From positions 1-23,742 of IMG/VR virus record IMGVR_UViG_3300006802_000578: a DNA stretch of 23,742 nucleotides; one strand, given 5' to 3'. Position 1 is the first letter of the stretch. Each line of letters starts with the position of its first letter. The notes beneath the pieces were generated by a model that was given only the letters and a program-made list of their open reading frames with translations, was not told where the DNA came from and ran no database searches. The translations under genes and the position numbers were made by a program. The stretch is from a virus. This document shows positions 67-23,608 of this stretch, piece after piece.

Positions 67-720
67 ATGGCATATTTAGATGATAGGTTGTCAGAAGAAG
101 AAAAAGGTATTTTATATACTATTTCTAATTATGATAAAGAAAGTGATTTTATTCATATTTTAACAAGTTTTAATTTTACAAATCTATTCAATTTAGGTTA
201 TGTAAATTTTGAAAGAAATGGTCTTTTCCCCTTTTTTTCTGAAGAATATCGATTGCACACAAAAAAAAGGTTAAAGAACAACACTAATATTGATAGCGAT
301 GGATGCTGGATTTGGAATAAATGTTTGGTTACTCCTAAAAGACTATATGGTTTAACTTCTCTTTCAATAAATAATTGTAAAAAGAAATATTTATCTCATA
401 GAGCCTCTTATCTTGTATTTAATGGTGTTATACCAAAAGGTTTGCATGTTTTGCATTATTGTGATAAGCCATTTTGCATTAATCCAAACTGTTTACATTT
501 GGGTACAGGACTTATAAATCAAAAAGAGATGTTTGAACGTGGCAGGGCAACAAAACCAACCAAAGAAAATAATGGAAACTCAAAGTTTACACAAAAGATT
601 ATAAATGAAATTAGAAATAAATATGAATTTGGATGGACTCAAAGAGATCTTTCAAGATTTTATAATACAACATCAAGCAATATAAATTGTATTGTAAATA
701 ATAAAACATGGAAGGTTTAA
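67..720 (+). CDS. HNH homing-type endonuclease with C-terminal helix-turn-helix
   Basis: A 217-aa protein. Residues 78-81 (DGCW) and 111-115 (HRASY) are the lead-in of the phage HNH_3-type nuclease domain, and residues 127-147 carry the metal-finger core: H130, C132, D133, C137, N139-P140, then G146-T147. A downstream NQKEMFERGRA segment also matches the family. The position normally held by the last catalytic His (NP-x-H-L) reads NPNCL, so it is Cys142, with a His at 144. Residues 170-217 (GNSKFT...TQRDLSRFYNTTSSNI...NNKTWKV) are the small helix-turn-helix tail common in free-standing phage HNH enzymes. Start chosen from the AGGAGG at 55-60. The gene is visibly more AT-rich than the structural genes, sits on the opposite strand to the late operon and converges on it, as expected for a mobile homing gene. 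Whether the nuclease is active is uncertain. Confidence 0.85.
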   Translation: MAYLDDRLSEEEKGILYTISNYDKESDFIHILTSFNFTNLFNLGYVNFERNGLFPFFSEEYRLHTKKRLKNNTNIDSDGCWIWNKCLVTPKRLYGLTSLSINNCKKKYLSHRASYLVFNGVIPKGLHVLHYCDKPFCINPNCLHLGTGLINQKEMFERGRATKPTKENNGNSKFTQKIINEIRNKYEFGWTQRDLSRFYNTTSSNINCIVNNKTWKV

Positions 721-13083: not shown

Positions 13084-15243
13084 TTATTGACCATTGTTCA
13101 ATAAAGGATTTTGTTGGTTTTCTTGCGGATTAATATTTTGCGACTCGATTTGTTGCCTAGCTTCTTCTTTTGCGTCGACCGTCTCAGCTTTACGTTCCGT
13201 CTCTAATGAAACAACTTCTTGTGCTAAGGCTTCTTGTTGATGCATCTCCTGAACGAATTTCATGAGTTCTATGATACGTTCATCTTCAAGTTTTGATATC
13301 TCAACAATTGCTTTTGCTCTTGCAAGTACAGCATCGGCAAGGTTAGAGGATGCTTCACTATGTCGTTCTTCAGCTAGACCAATATCGCTTAAGATTCTTG
13401 CCTCACGCTCTTTCGCCAAGCTTAAGTTTGAGATTTTCTGACTATTAGCAAGCTCTAGCGCCATTCTCTCTTGTTTATCAATTTTCTGTTGTTGCTGTTG
13501 TGCTTGTTTTTCTTGTGCACTGATAGCTTCTTTAAGTTCTTCAATACCCGAAACATCAAGTTGCTCAATGATGAGTGATTGGGGAACATCAACAATGCCT
13601 TCACGCTTAAGATTGACAAGTTCATAGTAGAACGCATCTTTTTGTGATTTGCTTCTGATGCCCTCTTTGATTTGGGCGTCATACTGCTCAAACTCTTTAT
13701 TGTAGAATTGCTTAGTCGGTGTTTCGCCTAGAATCCGCTCAATCTTCTCTGGTGGATACTTGTTTTGTAGCACCTGCATCACAAGGCCGCCCATCTGCTG
13801 TTGCGTATATTCGATATTGTCGAAGACTTTTCTATTCGATCTTAGGCCCTGGGCGATACGTACCTGTGCCAAACGTCCGCTAATTTGCGTGTTACCCCCC
13901 TCATCAATGCCCATCACGCTTTCGTTGACATTGGCGAGGGTAAGAGAGAGATCATCAAGAATCTTTTGGTATTCTATGATCGCAGGGTTGACCATGCCAC
14001 CTTGTAACTCTTGGACAGAGTTTAATCCTTCTGGGGCATTGTCAGGGTCTACACCAATGAGTTTAGCTTGCCCTGACTGTTGCAAATCTTCAACATCAGG
14101 AACAGAGCCAATGAGGTATTTGTAACCTGTCGAGATGACGCTATCCATCATATCGATAATCTTCATGTGTCGTTTGTTGAACTGCCTCTGATTCCAATAC
14201 TGTGTTGCTGCGATACCCTGTATTCTTTGTGAAGGCATCCATATTGAAGGCTCAAAATAACACACTAAAGGACGGAAAGGGAATGTTTCTATTATTCCTG
14301 TATCATCTTCACCTCGATAAACAGGTATCCCATTCAACATGATATTCAATTCTACGTATGGCCGCTCAATCTTCCTTATCTCGACTTTTGGGATCTCTGA
14401 CTCATCCAAACCCAGAAGCTCTCTATCTTCATGGAGATCTTTCATGCGCTTAATACCAGTCTTAAGCTTGTCTTTTTCTTCTTTATCAAGGTCGCTAATA
14501 TCTCGATAAAATCCTGTTGTAAGATCGACAAGGTATTCTCTCATGCGCGTTGTACGTCGATAATATTGATCATACGCTATGATCTTAGGTGCTTTACTTA
14601 CGTTTGTAAAACTGGGATGGAAGTTGATGAATTTGTCATCACGGAAGCTTGACGGGATGTCATCAATAACTTTTGGATCGACAATGTTATCTAGCAGCAT
14701 CTTCGCTTGCGTGGGGTTGACTAGGTCGCGTGTGATAGCAAATCCGCAGTCGCTTAAGTCAAGGTTTTCAAATGTAGGATCTAGATAGAATGAATTAAAT
14801 GTGCGCTTATAGAATGATATATCTCCATTGATAAAATCCTTGGAATAGTCCATCTGCAGCCCACAAAGTGAGATGCCAGATTTTAACATCTCATCACATG
14901 CTCCAAGGAATGTGTTGTATCCACTTCCTCGATCCCAAACATTATATTGAAGCTTTGTAAACTGTGTTGCTGTTTCTTCATCACTACCCTCAACAGGAGA
15001 AATGACCACAGACTTAAGATTATCCCTAAGATAACCGGAGAAGAATTCTAATGCTCGACGAGTAATATTGAATTCTATCGGCTCGCGCCCTTCCCTGGAT
15101 AGCTCTTCACGCTCAGTATTTGACCAGGTATAGCCACTTGCTGACATGGTAAAAACCTGAGCATCCGTTACGAAAGGACTCCAAAAGTCCCTTGCATACA
15201 GGTAATTGCTCTCATATTCTGATATTAGATTTGTGTCAGTCAT
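13084..15243 (-). CDS. Portal protein, P22-type (719 aa)
   Basis: Length is close to P22 gp1 (725 aa). The N-terminal part (REPIEFNITRRALEFFSGYLRDNLKSVVISPVEG, then EMLKSGISLCGLQMDYS) and the central YKRTFNSFYLDPTFENLDLSDCGFAITRDLV are characteristic of this portal family. It is followed by the crown/stem region with FPFRPLVCYFEPSIW and QRQFNKRHMKIIDMMDSVI. The last 150 residues form a long Gln/Glu-rich coiled coil (KQAQQQQQKIDKQERMALELAN onward), the barrel-like extension that reaches into the capsid. The ribosome site is weak (no good GGAGG before ATG 15243), but the N-terminus looks complete. It forms the dodecameric DNA channel and pairs with the terminase encoded upstream. Confidence 0.85.
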   Translation of the reverse strand: MTDTNLISEYESNYLYARDFWSPFVTDAQVFTMSASGYTWSNTEREELSREGREPIEFNITRRALEFFSGYLRDNLKSVVISPVEGSDEETATQFTKLQYNVWDRGSGYNTFLGACDEMLKSGISLCGLQMDYSKDFINGDISFYKRTFNSFYLDPTFENLDLSDCGFAITRDLVNPTQAKMLLDNIVDPKVIDDIPSSFRDDKFINFHPSFTNVSKAPKIIAYDQYYRRTTRMREYLVDLTTGFYRDISDLDKEEKDKLKTGIKRMKDLHEDRELLGLDESEIPKVEIRKIERPYVELNIMLNGIPVYRGEDDTGIIETFPFRPLVCYFEPSIWMPSQRIQGIAATQYWNQRQFNKRHMKIIDMMDSVISTGYKYLIGSVPDVEDLQQSGQAKLIGVDPDNAPEGLNSVQELQGGMVNPAIIEYQKILDDLSLTLANVNESVMGIDEGGNTQISGRLAQVRIAQGLRSNRKVFDNIEYTQQQMGGLVMQVLQNKYPPEKIERILGETPTKQFYNKEFEQYDAQIKEGIRSKSQKDAFYYELVNLKREGIVDVPQSLIIEQLDVSGIEELKEAISAQEKQAQQQQQKIDKQERMALELANSQKISNLSLAKEREARILSDIGLAEERHSEASSNLADAVLARAKAIVEISKLEDERIIELMKFVQEMHQQEALAQEVVSLETERKAETVDAKEEARQQIESQNINPQENQQNPLLNNGQ

Positions 15244-18920: not shown

Positions 18921-19089
18921 CGAAGGACGGCGTTATCTTAAGATGAGCTTGCCTGAAGAAGATGTTGAGCTTTGGACGGAAGACAGGTGCATTAGAGCGA
19001 TTAACCGCCTTTACTTCGGGGGTCTTCAAGCTTTTGCTAGGTATGTAGAAAAAAAGGAAGAGGCGCTCCCCCCTTCCTCAAAACAATGA
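18889..19089 (+). CDS. Last gene of the early cassette, hypothetical (66 aa)
   Basis: ATG 18889 with AAAGG about nine bases upstream is preferred. It overlaps the previous gene by 32 bases in another frame. The product is a charged helical protein (MEWERVLDEGRRYLKMSLPEEDVELWTEDRCIRAINRLYFGGLQAFARYVEKK) with one Cys. ATG 18898 is an alternative start. A terminator follows within five bases of the stop, confirming the end of the cassette. Function unknown. Confidence 0.55.
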   Translation: MKEMEWERVLDEGRRYLKMSLPEEDVELWTEDRCIRAINRLYFGGLQAFARYVEKKEEALPPSSKQ

Positions 19090-20144: not shown

Positions 20145-20253
20145 GGGCTTCCTTTTCATTTGGCAATTTAGCATCCAATTTAGCTACCAGCTCATCAATC
20201 TCTTCGATGATGAGGTCAACTTCGTCGATCAGGTCTTGCAGCGTGTCAGTCAT
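20134..20253 (-). CDS. Tiny acidic helical protein (39 aa)
   Basis: ATG 20253 overlaps the TGA of the ribbon-helix-helix gene (GAATGA) and has GAGAGGG in front. It ends in TAG at 20134, overlapping the next gene's start. The sequence (MTDTLQDLIDEVDLIIEEID then ELVAKLDAKLPNEKEAHER) is a nearly continuous acidic amphipathic helix. Coupled between two well-supported genes, it is probably real. A dimerisation partner or antagonist of the upstream RHH protein is a reasonable guess. Confidence 0.55.
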   Translation of the reverse strand: MTDTLQDLIDEVDLIIEEIDELVAKLDAKLPNEKEAHER

Positions 20254-20402
20254 TCACCCTCTCCGTCTTTGTTTTGTGCTAAATGTTGCTCAAGAATATG
20301 CTGCACCATGTCGGACACTTTCGTTTCGTTGTCGATGCAGTGGTGCTTAAACTGCTTGATAAGATCGGCAGGGAGGTAGATCGCAAGTTGTATTTTCTTC
20401 AT
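20250..20402 (-). CDS. Ribbon-helix-helix DNA-binding protein (50 aa)
   Basis: ATG 20402 follows GAGGATGAATC. The protein reads MKKIQLAIYLPADLIKQFKH then HCIDNETKVSDMVQHILEQH, the classical Arc/MetJ pattern: an N-terminal beta strand (KKIQLAIYLP), helix 1 (ADLIKQFKHHCIDN), a turn (ETKVS) and helix 2 (DMVQHILEQHL). RHH proteins of this size are dimeric repressors, often autoregulatory or acting as antitoxins. It is coupled to the 39-aa acidic gene. The likely operators in the window are the inverted repeats at 22764 or 17921, an untested inference. Confidence 0.7.
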   Translation of the reverse strand: MKKIQLAIYLPADLIKQFKHHCIDNETKVSDMVQHILEQHLAQNKDGEGE

Positions 20403-21691: not shown

Positions 21692-22714
21692 TTAGAGGCT
21701 CATGTATCTTTTTCTAGTTAGACAATCAACGTAATATCCTGACAATTTTGATATAGGTACTCCTCTGTTTTTCATGTTTCTGCAATATCGTGCTGCTAGC
21801 TCAAGTTCACCTAGCTTGTTTGATACGTTAATCTTCTTGAGGTAGCCTTGATCAATCCCTATTGCACGAAGCCAGTTGATTGCAGTTGACTCACTCCTAA
21901 AACATTCAGACAGATCCAAATCTAAAAAAGCAAGCGGGACGGCGGAGCCGTTGTAGTCTGTTTTAATAACATTGGTATATGGAGAAAAAGGAATATGATT
22001 TGAGGGTACATCTACACTCCGCCCAAAATCTCTTCCCTGAGGGTTTTTGGTACGACTACACTCCGCCCTATTGGGTTGATTTCCATCTACACTCCGCCCT
22101 AAGTTATGAACAATCTCGCCTTTATTATCAGACAACGCCCCCTGTCTCATCTTTTCAATGGCAAACTCTGCTTCTTCTTTTGTGATCTTTTGGCGCATCG
22201 AAGGGAAGGCCTTATTATTAAGCTTGGTGAAGGCATTGTTGTATGAGGTGACATCTACTATTGAAATATTATGAATGACCTTAGAGTTGATGTATTTGCT
22301 TCCATCAGCGTTTTTTGTTCTAGTCCTCTTTTCTTCGATAAGAATAAGCGATAATCCTTCAAGCTGTTCAAAGGACTGCATCAATGCTTGTTTACCTTTG
22401 ACGACTGTTTTATTTGAGCATCCTATTTGATCAGCATATGTTTGGCCTGTTGCCCATGCTTTGTTGACTCTTCCTGATTTTTGCTTGATAACTCGATAAA
22501 GTTCTTTTTGATGTGGCGTCAGGCGTTTCCTGTACCAGGTCTCCTCACCTGTTTCCTTGTTTACCTCACAGTCGATATAAGTCAAATGATCGATGATAGC
22601 AGGGACTTTATCAAAGTTGCATTGATACCCTTGAGTGAACCTTTCTTGGTACTCATCATTAAAAAGGTTTGGATTTTCTTTGGTGTAATTAGAATTTTGA
22701 TTTGATTCTGACAT
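21692..22714 (-). CDS. Replication initiator-like protein, lambda O-type arrangement (340 aa)
   Basis: The frame extends further upstream, but ATG 22714 follows AAGGAA and lies about 20 nt from the predicted promoter start. Residues of about 65-155 form a winged helix-turn-helix of the replication-protein type (LTPHQKELYRVIKQ, ATGQTYADQIGCSNKTVVKGKQALMQ, then the wing SLILIEEKRTRTKNADGSKY). Residues of about 205-234 are encoded by three iterons and form a low-conservation linker. The C-terminal part (INWLRAIGIDQGYLKKINVSNKLGELELAARYCRNM) is a helical domain that could load helicase or bind a partner. Having the origin repeats inside the initiator gene is the lambda O design. No polymerase, helicase or primase gene is visible nearby, so host factors are probably used. 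Confidence 0.65.
   Translation of the reverse strand: MSESNQNSNYTKENPNLFNDEYQERFTQGYQCNFDKVPAIIDHLTYIDCEVNKETGEETWYRKRLTPHQKELYRVIKQKSGRVNKAWATGQTYADQIGCSNKTVVKGKQALMQSFEQLEGLSLILIEEKRTRTKNADGSKYINSKVIHNISIVDVTSYNNAFTKLNNKAFPSMRQKITKEEAEFAIEKMRQGALSDNKGEIVHNLGRSVDGNQPNRAECSRTKNPQGRDFGRSVDVPSNHIPFSPYTNVIKTDYNGSAVPLAFLDLDLSECFRSESTAINWLRAIGIDQGYLKKINVSNKLGELELAARYCRNMKNRGVPISKLSGYYVDCLTRKRYMSL
22012..22099 (-). repeat. Iteron array, probable replication origin inside the initiator gene
   Basis: Three perfect 13-bp copies read GGGCGGAGTGTAG on the minus strand, at 22012-22024, 22056-22068 and 22087-22099 (spacings 44 and 31 bp). They are translated in two different frames (GRSVD for the outer two, AECS for the middle one), so the identity is kept at DNA level and not at protein level. 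This indicates DNA-binding sites. A perfect hairpin (ACGGCGGAGCCGT) lies about 80 bp to the left. Confidence 0.65.
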
Positions 22715-22741
22715 GATTGTTTTCCTTAAATAATGTTTTAT

Positions 22742-22769
22742 ATTGTAAGGAAAACTCATTGCATGATAA
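22742..22769 (-). promoter_or_regulatory. Promoter of the initiator operon
   Basis: On the minus strand TTATCA, a 16-bp spacer and TACAAT precede ATG 22714, with predicted start near 22735. The -35 box overlaps the left arm of the inverted repeat at 22764-22798, so binding there would block it. Confidence 0.5.
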
Positions 22770-22787
22770 ACTATGACCGCATATGAT
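22759..22787 (+). promoter_or_regulatory. Divergent promoter of a short RNA
   Basis: TTGCAT (22759-22764), a 17-bp spacer and TATGAT (22782-22787), predicted start near 22794. No coding sequence follows on this strand; transcription would meet the terminator at 22816 within about 25 nt. The -35 box is the same TTGCAT as in the promoter at 17654. Confidence 0.5.
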
Positions 22788-22798
22788 CTAGTTTATCA
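22764..22798. promoter_or_regulatory. Inverted-repeat operator between divergent promoters
   Basis: TGATAAACTA (22764-22773) and TAGTTTATCA (22789-22798) are perfect 10-bp complements around a 15-bp centre. The left arm overlaps the -35 box of the leftward promoter and the spacer of the rightward one. The right arm covers the rightward start site. This placement fits a repressor that controls both promoters. The binding protein is not identified; the RHH protein at 20250-20402 is one candidate. Confidence 0.55.
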
Positions 22799-22847
22799 CG
22801 CAAAGAGTAATCCAAGGCCATGTTAGCGCATGGCCTCTCTTTTTTTG
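22794..22847 (+). ncRNA. Predicted short regulatory RNA (about 54 nt)
   Basis: Bounded by the promoter at 22759-22787 and the terminator hairpin at 22816-22847. It contains about 22 nt of single-stranded 5' sequence (TTTATCACGCAAAGAG...) followed by the GGCCATG/CATGGCC hairpin and a U-rich tail, the layout of a small regulatory RNA. Readthrough to the second terminator would give about 104 nt. No ribosome site or ORF is present. Inferred from sequence only. Confidence 0.4.
22816..22847 (+). terminator. Intrinsic terminator (first of two, plus strand)
   Basis: GGCCATG (22816-22822), a six-base loop and CATGGCC (22829-22835), followed by TCTCTTTTTTTG. A seven-base-pair GC-rich stem with a T tract. 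It faces rightward although both flanking genes run leftward. Confidence 0.75.
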
Positions 22848-22874
22848 AAGCTAAATTTTTCGTTTTATGGTTTT

Positions 22875-22897
22875 GACCCTTCGGGGTCTTTTTTTTT
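22875..22897 (+). terminator. Intrinsic terminator (second of two, plus strand)
   Basis: GACCC-TTCG-GGGTC with a stable UUCG tetraloop and a nine-T tract (22889-22897). It backs up the terminator at 22816, keeping plus-strand transcripts out of the converging leftward genes. Confidence 0.75.
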
Positions 22898-22926: not shown

Positions 22927-22967
22927 GTGAGAAGTTGCAATCGCAGCTGTCCAGGAAGTTTGTTTAT

Positions 22968-22983
22968 CCCCTCTTATGAGGGG
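22968..22983. repeat. Hairpin after the stop of the 126-aa gene
   Basis: CCCCTC-TTAT-GAGGGG, a perfect 6-bp stem, just beyond the stop (TAA) of the leftward gene at 22987. Neither side has a strong T tract, so it may be a weak terminator or an mRNA 3' end protecting structure. Confidence 0.45.
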
Positions 22984-22986
22984 AGT

Positions 22987-23367
22987 TTAACTTTCTCCGC
23001 AGACGGGACAAAAACTTACTCTCTTTGCCTTTGATTTACCTTCTATTGATTCAACATAGATTCCGTCTCGCTTATGACGTGACGACCAATGTGCGTCCAT
23101 GCAGACTTTTTCATCGTAAGGGGGAAGGGGTGTCCAGTGAGAAGGCTCTGAATCATAATCCGGGCAATCCGTCATCCAGTGTCCCCACCCATGTAGGAGT
23201 ATTCTTTTATCATCGGCTATATCAGTAGCGCAATCGTCTATACAAAAACAGCCGATCGAATATGATTTAATGCTATCCCAATATACGATCACATATTCCG
23301 TGTATCCTTCGGGGTCGTCTTCGCAGCGTGGAGGAATCTTTTTCTTGCAGTCATACCAGTCAGTCAT
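22987..23367 (-). CDS. DUF551-like protein with C-terminal zinc motif (126 aa)
   Basis: ATG 23367 is chosen because GGAGGAGAAAG precedes it. A slightly longer frame starts inside the upstream gene. DUF551-like features: MTDWYDCKKKIPP at the start, a YVIVYWD strand, YSIGCFCIDD, then WGHWMTDCPDYDSEPSHWTPLPPYDE, the signature HW-x-PLPP end. The last 45 residues are an extension with FCPVCGES, a two-Cys zinc knuckle that may pair with other Cys in the protein. Overlaps the stop of the upstream gene by eight bases. Role unknown; common in phage accessory regions. Confidence 0.6.
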   Translation of the reverse strand: MTDWYDCKKKIPPRCEDDPEGYTEYVIVYWDSIKSYSIGCFCIDDCATDIADDKRILLHGWGHWMTDCPDYDSEPSHWTPLPPYDEKVCMDAHWSSRHKRDGIYVESIEGKSKAKRVSFCPVCGES

Positions 23368-23608
23368 CTTTCTCCTCCAGCAACACACTAAAATCTTCTA
23401 CAGCTTCTGTCCTTCTTAACCTTTCACAAGGATACTCGCTCTCAAACACAATATGAGGCGCTCTGTTGCTATATACTTGATATATACGGAAATACTGCCA
23501 CTCATGAATAGAAGCTTTTTTGAACGCATTGTTTAGAGTCGTAGCATGGGTGACGTTTTTGGTGTCGTTACCCTGCGGGGTGATCTGGTTGATGATTAGT
23601 ACTTTCAT
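23360..23608 (-). CDS. Hypothetical small protein (82 aa)
   Basis: A small alpha/beta protein (MKVLIINQITPQGNDTKNVTHATTLNNAFKKASIHEWQYFRIYQVYSNRAPHIVFESEYPCERLRRTEAVEDFSVLLEEKDD overall, shown in part by MKVLIINQITP and HIVFESEYP). The ribosome site is weak (GGAC ten bases upstream). It is coupled to the DUF551-like gene by overlap of its stop. No family recognised. Confidence 0.5.
   Translation of the reverse strand: MKVLIINQITPQGNDTKNVTHATTLNNAFKKASIHEWQYFRIYQVYSNRAPHIVFESEYPCERLRRTEAVEDFSVLLEEKDD

Follow-up and report, generated by a model that had tools for sequence, protein, structure and literature searches.

A candidate oop-like antisense unit on the structured leader of a phage replication initiator resembling lambda O

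Results

The initiator gene and its surroundings

The window, by which we mean the whole 23,742-nucleotide stretch analyzed, is a 23.7-kb virus record with a P22-like portal. Its leftward gene at 21692..22714 (-) encodes a protein of 340 amino acids that looks like a replication initiator of the lambda O-type layout. Matches to phage replication initiation families are weak (phrog_270, E 0.0011; phrog_19658, E 0.0038). Because a Shine-Dalgarno motif, AAGGA, is properly spaced from 22714, this position is the most likely start, not the first ATG at 22759. A single relative of the protein, L002 (30% identity), was found in IMG/VR. Searches of annotated phages and plasmids with tblastn returned zero matches, and none of the 80 loci fetched as portal relatives held this initiator. 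A structure model (mean pLDDT 44, too weak for a fold search) has a winged-helix-like order of elements in its N-terminal half and a low-confidence, unstructured stretch at the iteron positions.

These iterons, which the original prediction had missed, form a 19-bp direct repeat present three times around CTACACTCCGCCC; a repeat search located them inside the initiator gene at 22009..22102. We presume that they constitute the origin; an origin within the gene is the layout of lambda O (PMC3985674). At the equivalent place, the L002 initiator carries a different 28-bp repeat, also in three copies. Iterons are present inside five other phage initiators, and the same script recovered those of lambda O.

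Upstream of the initiator are two more leftward genes, one at 22987..23388 (-), which is phrog_4030-like by profile match, and the other at 23360-23608 (-). The terminator scan detected no leftward terminator between these genes and the initiator, and we presume that the nearer one is co-transcribed with it. At the 3' end of the same gene, positions 22933-22998 (+) fold at -27.7 kcal/mol, which ranks with the lowest local energies in the window; the strand of that gene has no T-run there. On the other side of the initiator, a 50-aa ribbon-helix-helix (RHH), Arc-like protein is encoded at 20250..20402 (-) (phrog_2639, E 9.4e-7; RHH_5, E 2.5e-5) and is a possible regulator. A strong leftward terminator at 19053-19079 (-), directly after a RusA-like gene, likely closes the leftward operon to which the initiator belongs.

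Two hairpins in the initiator leader

The original prediction described a perfect 10-bp inverted repeat in this region, and it is indeed present (TGATAAACTA, 22764-22773; TAGTTTATCA, 22789-22798). Inverted-repeat and fold scans demonstrate that it is part of a longer structure of the initiator leader, which we call hairpin A (22749..22813, minus strand). This structure has 25-nt arms (22749-22773 and 22789-22813; 84% complementary) separated by a 15-nt spacer. It is the top-scoring inverted repeat of the window, matched in 0 of 300 shuffles, and the 66-nt segment at this place has the lowest fold energy among the 7892 scanned over the whole contig. As RNA, hairpin A is worth -34.0 kcal/mol on the minus strand, where it includes two G.U pairs, versus -23.5 kcal/mol on the plus strand; its imperfect positions pair better in minus-strand RNA. 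No second occurrence of TGATAAACTA without mismatch was found in the window, nor was any exact copy of the inverted repeat found elsewhere in the viral contigs searched.

Fold and repeat scans also revealed a hairpin that had previously gone unnoticed. Hairpin B (22719..22755, minus strand) has a perfect 10-bp stem with arms at 22719-22728 and 22746-22755, a feature equalled in 7 of 2000 shuffles. The Shine-Dalgarno site of the initiator, AAGGA(A), is in the 3' arm, at 22721..22726 (-) within TAAGGAAAAC. The predicted accessibility of this site depends on where the transcript begins: its unpaired probability is approximately 0.00-0.15 for transcripts starting at 22757 or further right (that is, read-in transcripts), but 0.78-0.98 for those starting at 22735 or 22745. 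The initiator should therefore be poorly translated from read-in mRNA and well translated from a local transcript.

A short rightward RNA and its candidate promoters

On the opposite strand, an intrinsic terminator (AGGCCATG TTAGCG CATGGCCT followed by a T-rich tail) lies at 22815..22845 (+). Its 9-bp stem (22815-22836; dG -13.9) is followed by CTCTTTTTTT, which bears out the strong terminator proposed earlier, and it is among the few strong terminators of the contig. It diverges from the initiator and is within about 250 bp upstream of it, a placement like that of the lambda oop terminator. A second rightward terminator, GACCCTTCGGGGTC plus a T-run (22875..22897, +), was picked up by the terminator scan and had been missed before.

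The letters of both promoters in the original prediction are in place. The rightward candidate (22759..22787, +) consists of TTGCAT at 22759-22764 and, after 17 nt, TATGAT at 22782-22787, the latter inside the apical loop of hairpin A. The local leftward candidate for the initiator (22742..22769, -) consists of TTATCA at 22769-22764 and, after 16 nt, TACAAT at 22747-22742, with a start near 22735; its -10 element (22742-22747) overlaps the 5' arm of hairpin B (22746-22755). The rightward candidate matches 8/12 consensus positions, a score attained by 331 of 500 shuffled versions of the same 80 bp (66%); the leftward one matches 9/12, a score attained by 136 of 500 shuffled versions of a 60-bp piece (27%). 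Since these scores are not above chance, neither match is evidence by itself, and the promoters and start sites are to be read as guesses from consensus.

Taken at face value, the rightward candidate would start an RNA at ~22794 that ends at ~22846 (+), or ~53 nt, close to the ~54 nt proposed originally. This plus-strand RNA folds at -17.8 kcal/mol (z -3.7). A short, non-coding, terminator-ended RNA beside the initiator is plausible, while its proposed promoter matches consensus at a level that most shuffles reach.

The antisense relation to the leader

The original prediction reasoned that this RNA diverges from the initiator, so that its target must lie elsewhere. We find no support for this point. 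To our knowledge, an antisense RNA always faces away from the gene that it opposes, and the deciding factor is the start of the sense mRNA. The short RNA is complementary to the initiator mRNA if the latter begins to the right of 22846. Because no leftward terminator separates the two upstream genes from the initiator, mRNA reading in from them would contain a sequence exactly complementary to the short RNA. The target search suggested at the time, using the 22-nt 5' segment, itself leads back to this locus: the best pairing in the window is with the initiator leader (-35.4 kcal/mol), and the next is approximately -18 kcal/mol. Being perfectly antisense to the leader, the RNA needs no distant target, provided that the initiator is read from the upstream operon. 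The likeness to copy-control or switch RNAs drawn in the original prediction was, by contrast, the right analogy.

We also considered a switch between hairpins A and B, in which binding of the antisense RNA would free or hide the ribosome site. This idea was dropped, as hairpin B folds with or without the RNA bound (modeled by blocking the stretch that the RNA would occupy). No change in access to the ribosome site is therefore predicted to be caused by the RNA, and any effect would have to be exerted via interference, RNase III or some other route.

Comparison with other phage initiators

Given the lack of a close relative of the initiator, we compared arrangement instead of sequence. Fifteen other initiators were selected on protein similarity alone: L002, nine phrog_270 matches taken from contigs sharing the portal, and five relatives of L095/L094. 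The sample is small, the phages are not fully independent (their initiators and leaders are nonetheless very different), gene calls on the control contigs are crude, and the thresholds were chosen while the first cases were being viewed. With those caveats, a divergent intrinsic terminator (dG <= -11, within 450 bp upstream and pointing away from the initiator) precedes 9 of the 15 initiators; in two of these nine cases it is bidirectional. Among the co-directional control gaps, 10 of 90 have one (Fisher p 8e-5). The control figure was 12 of 92 gaps from the same contigs before the L021 and L065 gaps were removed as bordering initiator-like genes. Lambda served as a positive control, and its pO and tO were both recovered. 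Of all the promoters, that of L002 is the best: TTGTCA-N18-TATAAT (11/12 matches, with TG before the -10) fires away from the initiator into the terminator.

We compared leader folding as well. For the 140 nt that precede the start codon, the median z was -3.6 for 16 initiators, L021 and L065 included, versus -0.5 for 90 controls (p 2.5e-5). The test is conservative, since a few control sequences may in fact be leaders of initiators. At z -9.2, the leader in the window is lower than every control. In L105 and L021, a long inverted repeat, located between roughly -90 and -30, comes directly after a divergent terminator, as in the window, and L092 has a terminator-like stem and then an even longer inverted repeat; the weaker L105 terminator (-9.8) and the L092 stem were left out of the terminator count.

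The arrangement is not universal, since seven isolated-phage initiators chosen by similarity to the relatives have no divergent terminator. A sense-strand folding bias was considered as a general rule and abandoned, the phages giving mixed results. For covariation, close relatives of the initiators of L091 and L092 were sought, and the searches returned only the queries themselves. Comparison of the region with phages by blastn gave one 27-bp match (E 0.3), which we ignored, and Rfam covariance models gave 0 matches at the gathering score.

Some leaders have features of their own. By eye, short frames with ribosome sites overlap the initiator start in L090 (reverse strand, before the start at 1989) and L091 (before 1480), and CTCC/GGAG stems hide the initiator's ribosome site in both, resembling the coupled leader peptides of plasmid initiators. 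Also by eye, the long hairpin in the leaders of L107 (1289-1417) and L021 (1541-1624) has a loop whose sequence complements the region of the initiator's ribosome site, a possible pseudoknot.

Discussion

On balance, we lean toward the view that this region is an oop-like antisense unit laid over the structured leader of a lambda O-type initiator. Leftward mRNA reading in from the upstream genes would carry a leader containing hairpin A and then hairpin B. An oop-like promoter within hairpin A would fire rightward, and the resulting RNA of ~53 nt, ending at the terminator at 22815-22845, could pair fully with the 5' part of that leader. Opposing transcription and antisense pairing would limit the leftward transcription that reaches the initiator and its in-gene origin, as proposed for lambda pO/oop. 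Opposing transcription would be the likeliest effect, with pairing and cleavage second. Transcripts from the local leftward promoter would not include hairpin B's 5' arm and would allow the initiator to be made freely. Computation supports the terminator, the two hairpins, the iterons, the complementarity, the Shine-Dalgarno burial and the recurrence of the arrangement elsewhere, whereas working promoters, read-in transcription and the regulatory outcome are inferred. By analogy, the unit may help to set the frequency of phage DNA copying.

The closest known system is lambda pO-oop-tO. OOP RNA has an orientation identical to that of the short RNA here, away from the initiator (PMC3985674, PMC5869508). 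In lambda, and by prediction here, a short RNA is fired away from an O-type initiator with in-gene iterons, ends at an intrinsic terminator just upstream and opposes the transcript of the initiator's operon. What OOP and pO do in lambda replication was long obscure; pO lowers the amount of pR transcription arriving at O and the origin, and its loss impairs replication (PMC3985674). There are differences as well. OOP is antisense to cII, overlapping its 3' end by 52 bases (PMC5869508), whereas the RNA in the window would end at ~22846, some 140 nt short of the upstream gene's stop at 22987, with no overlap. Moreover, the lambda O leader is not unusually folded (z ~0). A LexA box (CTGT-N8-ACAG, with at most one mismatch) is absent from the region, a consensus that may not be that of the host.

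Plasmid R1 offers a second parallel: its CopA antisense RNA acts on CopT, an initiator leader that is strongly folded and conceals the ribosome site. The locus described here likewise combines such a leader with a predicted antisense RNA. It differs in that inspection by eye revealed no coupled leader peptide in the window: no frame with a ribosome site overlaps the initiator start. In Bacillus subtilis, one report describes an antisense RNA on the 5' untranslated region of dnaA (PMC12112137). There, too, the RNA overlaps the leader of a replication initiator, although that initiator is a cellular one.

Other explanations must be weighed against this proposal. The inverted repeat, which the original prediction named as a shared operator, could be a DNA operator, at which a repressor (the RHH protein, a Cro/CI-like protein or the initiator itself) closes two divergent promoters, the short RNA being a by-product or absent. 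We consider this rather unlikely, despite several points in its favor: the repeat spans the leftward candidate -35 and both rightward candidate elements, an Arc-like RHH protein is encoded nearby, and replication initiators often autoregulate. Yet the 10-bp half-site is found without mismatch at no second place in the window, and 25-nt arms with a 15-nt spacer would be long for an Arc-type site. The G.U pairs of the repeat, which fall on the initiator-sense strand, and the retention of a folded leader in other phages with unrelated sequences also speak against an operator.

It is less probable still that the locus is a timing switch without a functional small RNA, in which hairpin B silences read-in transcripts, the local promoter turns the initiator on, and the terminators serve only to shield the upstream genes from antisense transcription. 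Such a switch would resemble T4 gene e, in which read-in transcripts bury the ribosome site in a hairpin whose 5' arm contains a local promoter (PMC3014915). The predicted burial of the Shine-Dalgarno site here varies with the transcript's 5' end, the candidate local -10 overlaps hairpin B in its 5' arm as in gene e (PMC3014915), and two rightward terminators stand in series. The T4 case is distinguished by its use of late promoters, and an antisense RNA does not figure in the passages on gene e (PMC3014915). Further, a timing switch leaves unexplained both hairpin A and the divergent terminators before other initiators. Finally, a trans-acting small RNA with a phage or host target unrelated to the initiator strikes us as very improbable. 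The 5' segment is predicted to be partly single-stranded, but the best non-cognate pairing in the window, at about -18 kcal/mol, falls far short of the -35 kcal/mol for the leader.

Beyond our favored reading of an oop-like unit at this locus, we offer a more tentative generalization. Many phages with O-type initiators may possess a plasmid-like copy-control leader, strongly folded and with a hidden ribosome site, from within which a divergent, terminator-ended antisense RNA arises; such leaders would recur with very different initiators, and OOP would be a reduced form. The recurrence of the arrangement before other initiators, if true, would turn a lambda peculiarity into a general design. 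It would also link the timing of phage replication to plasmid copy control, a connection testable by reporters.

Two observations concern other parts of the window. A reading frame with an HNH-like motif at 67-720 (+), bordering a structural block that otherwise lies on the minus strand, possibly encodes a homing endonuclease, judging from its sequence. The portal gene (13084-15243, -) has at least 86 relatives in IMG/VR and zero matches in 50,697 annotated phage records; one relative, with 62% identity, is on a contig binned as a Parcubacteria genome.
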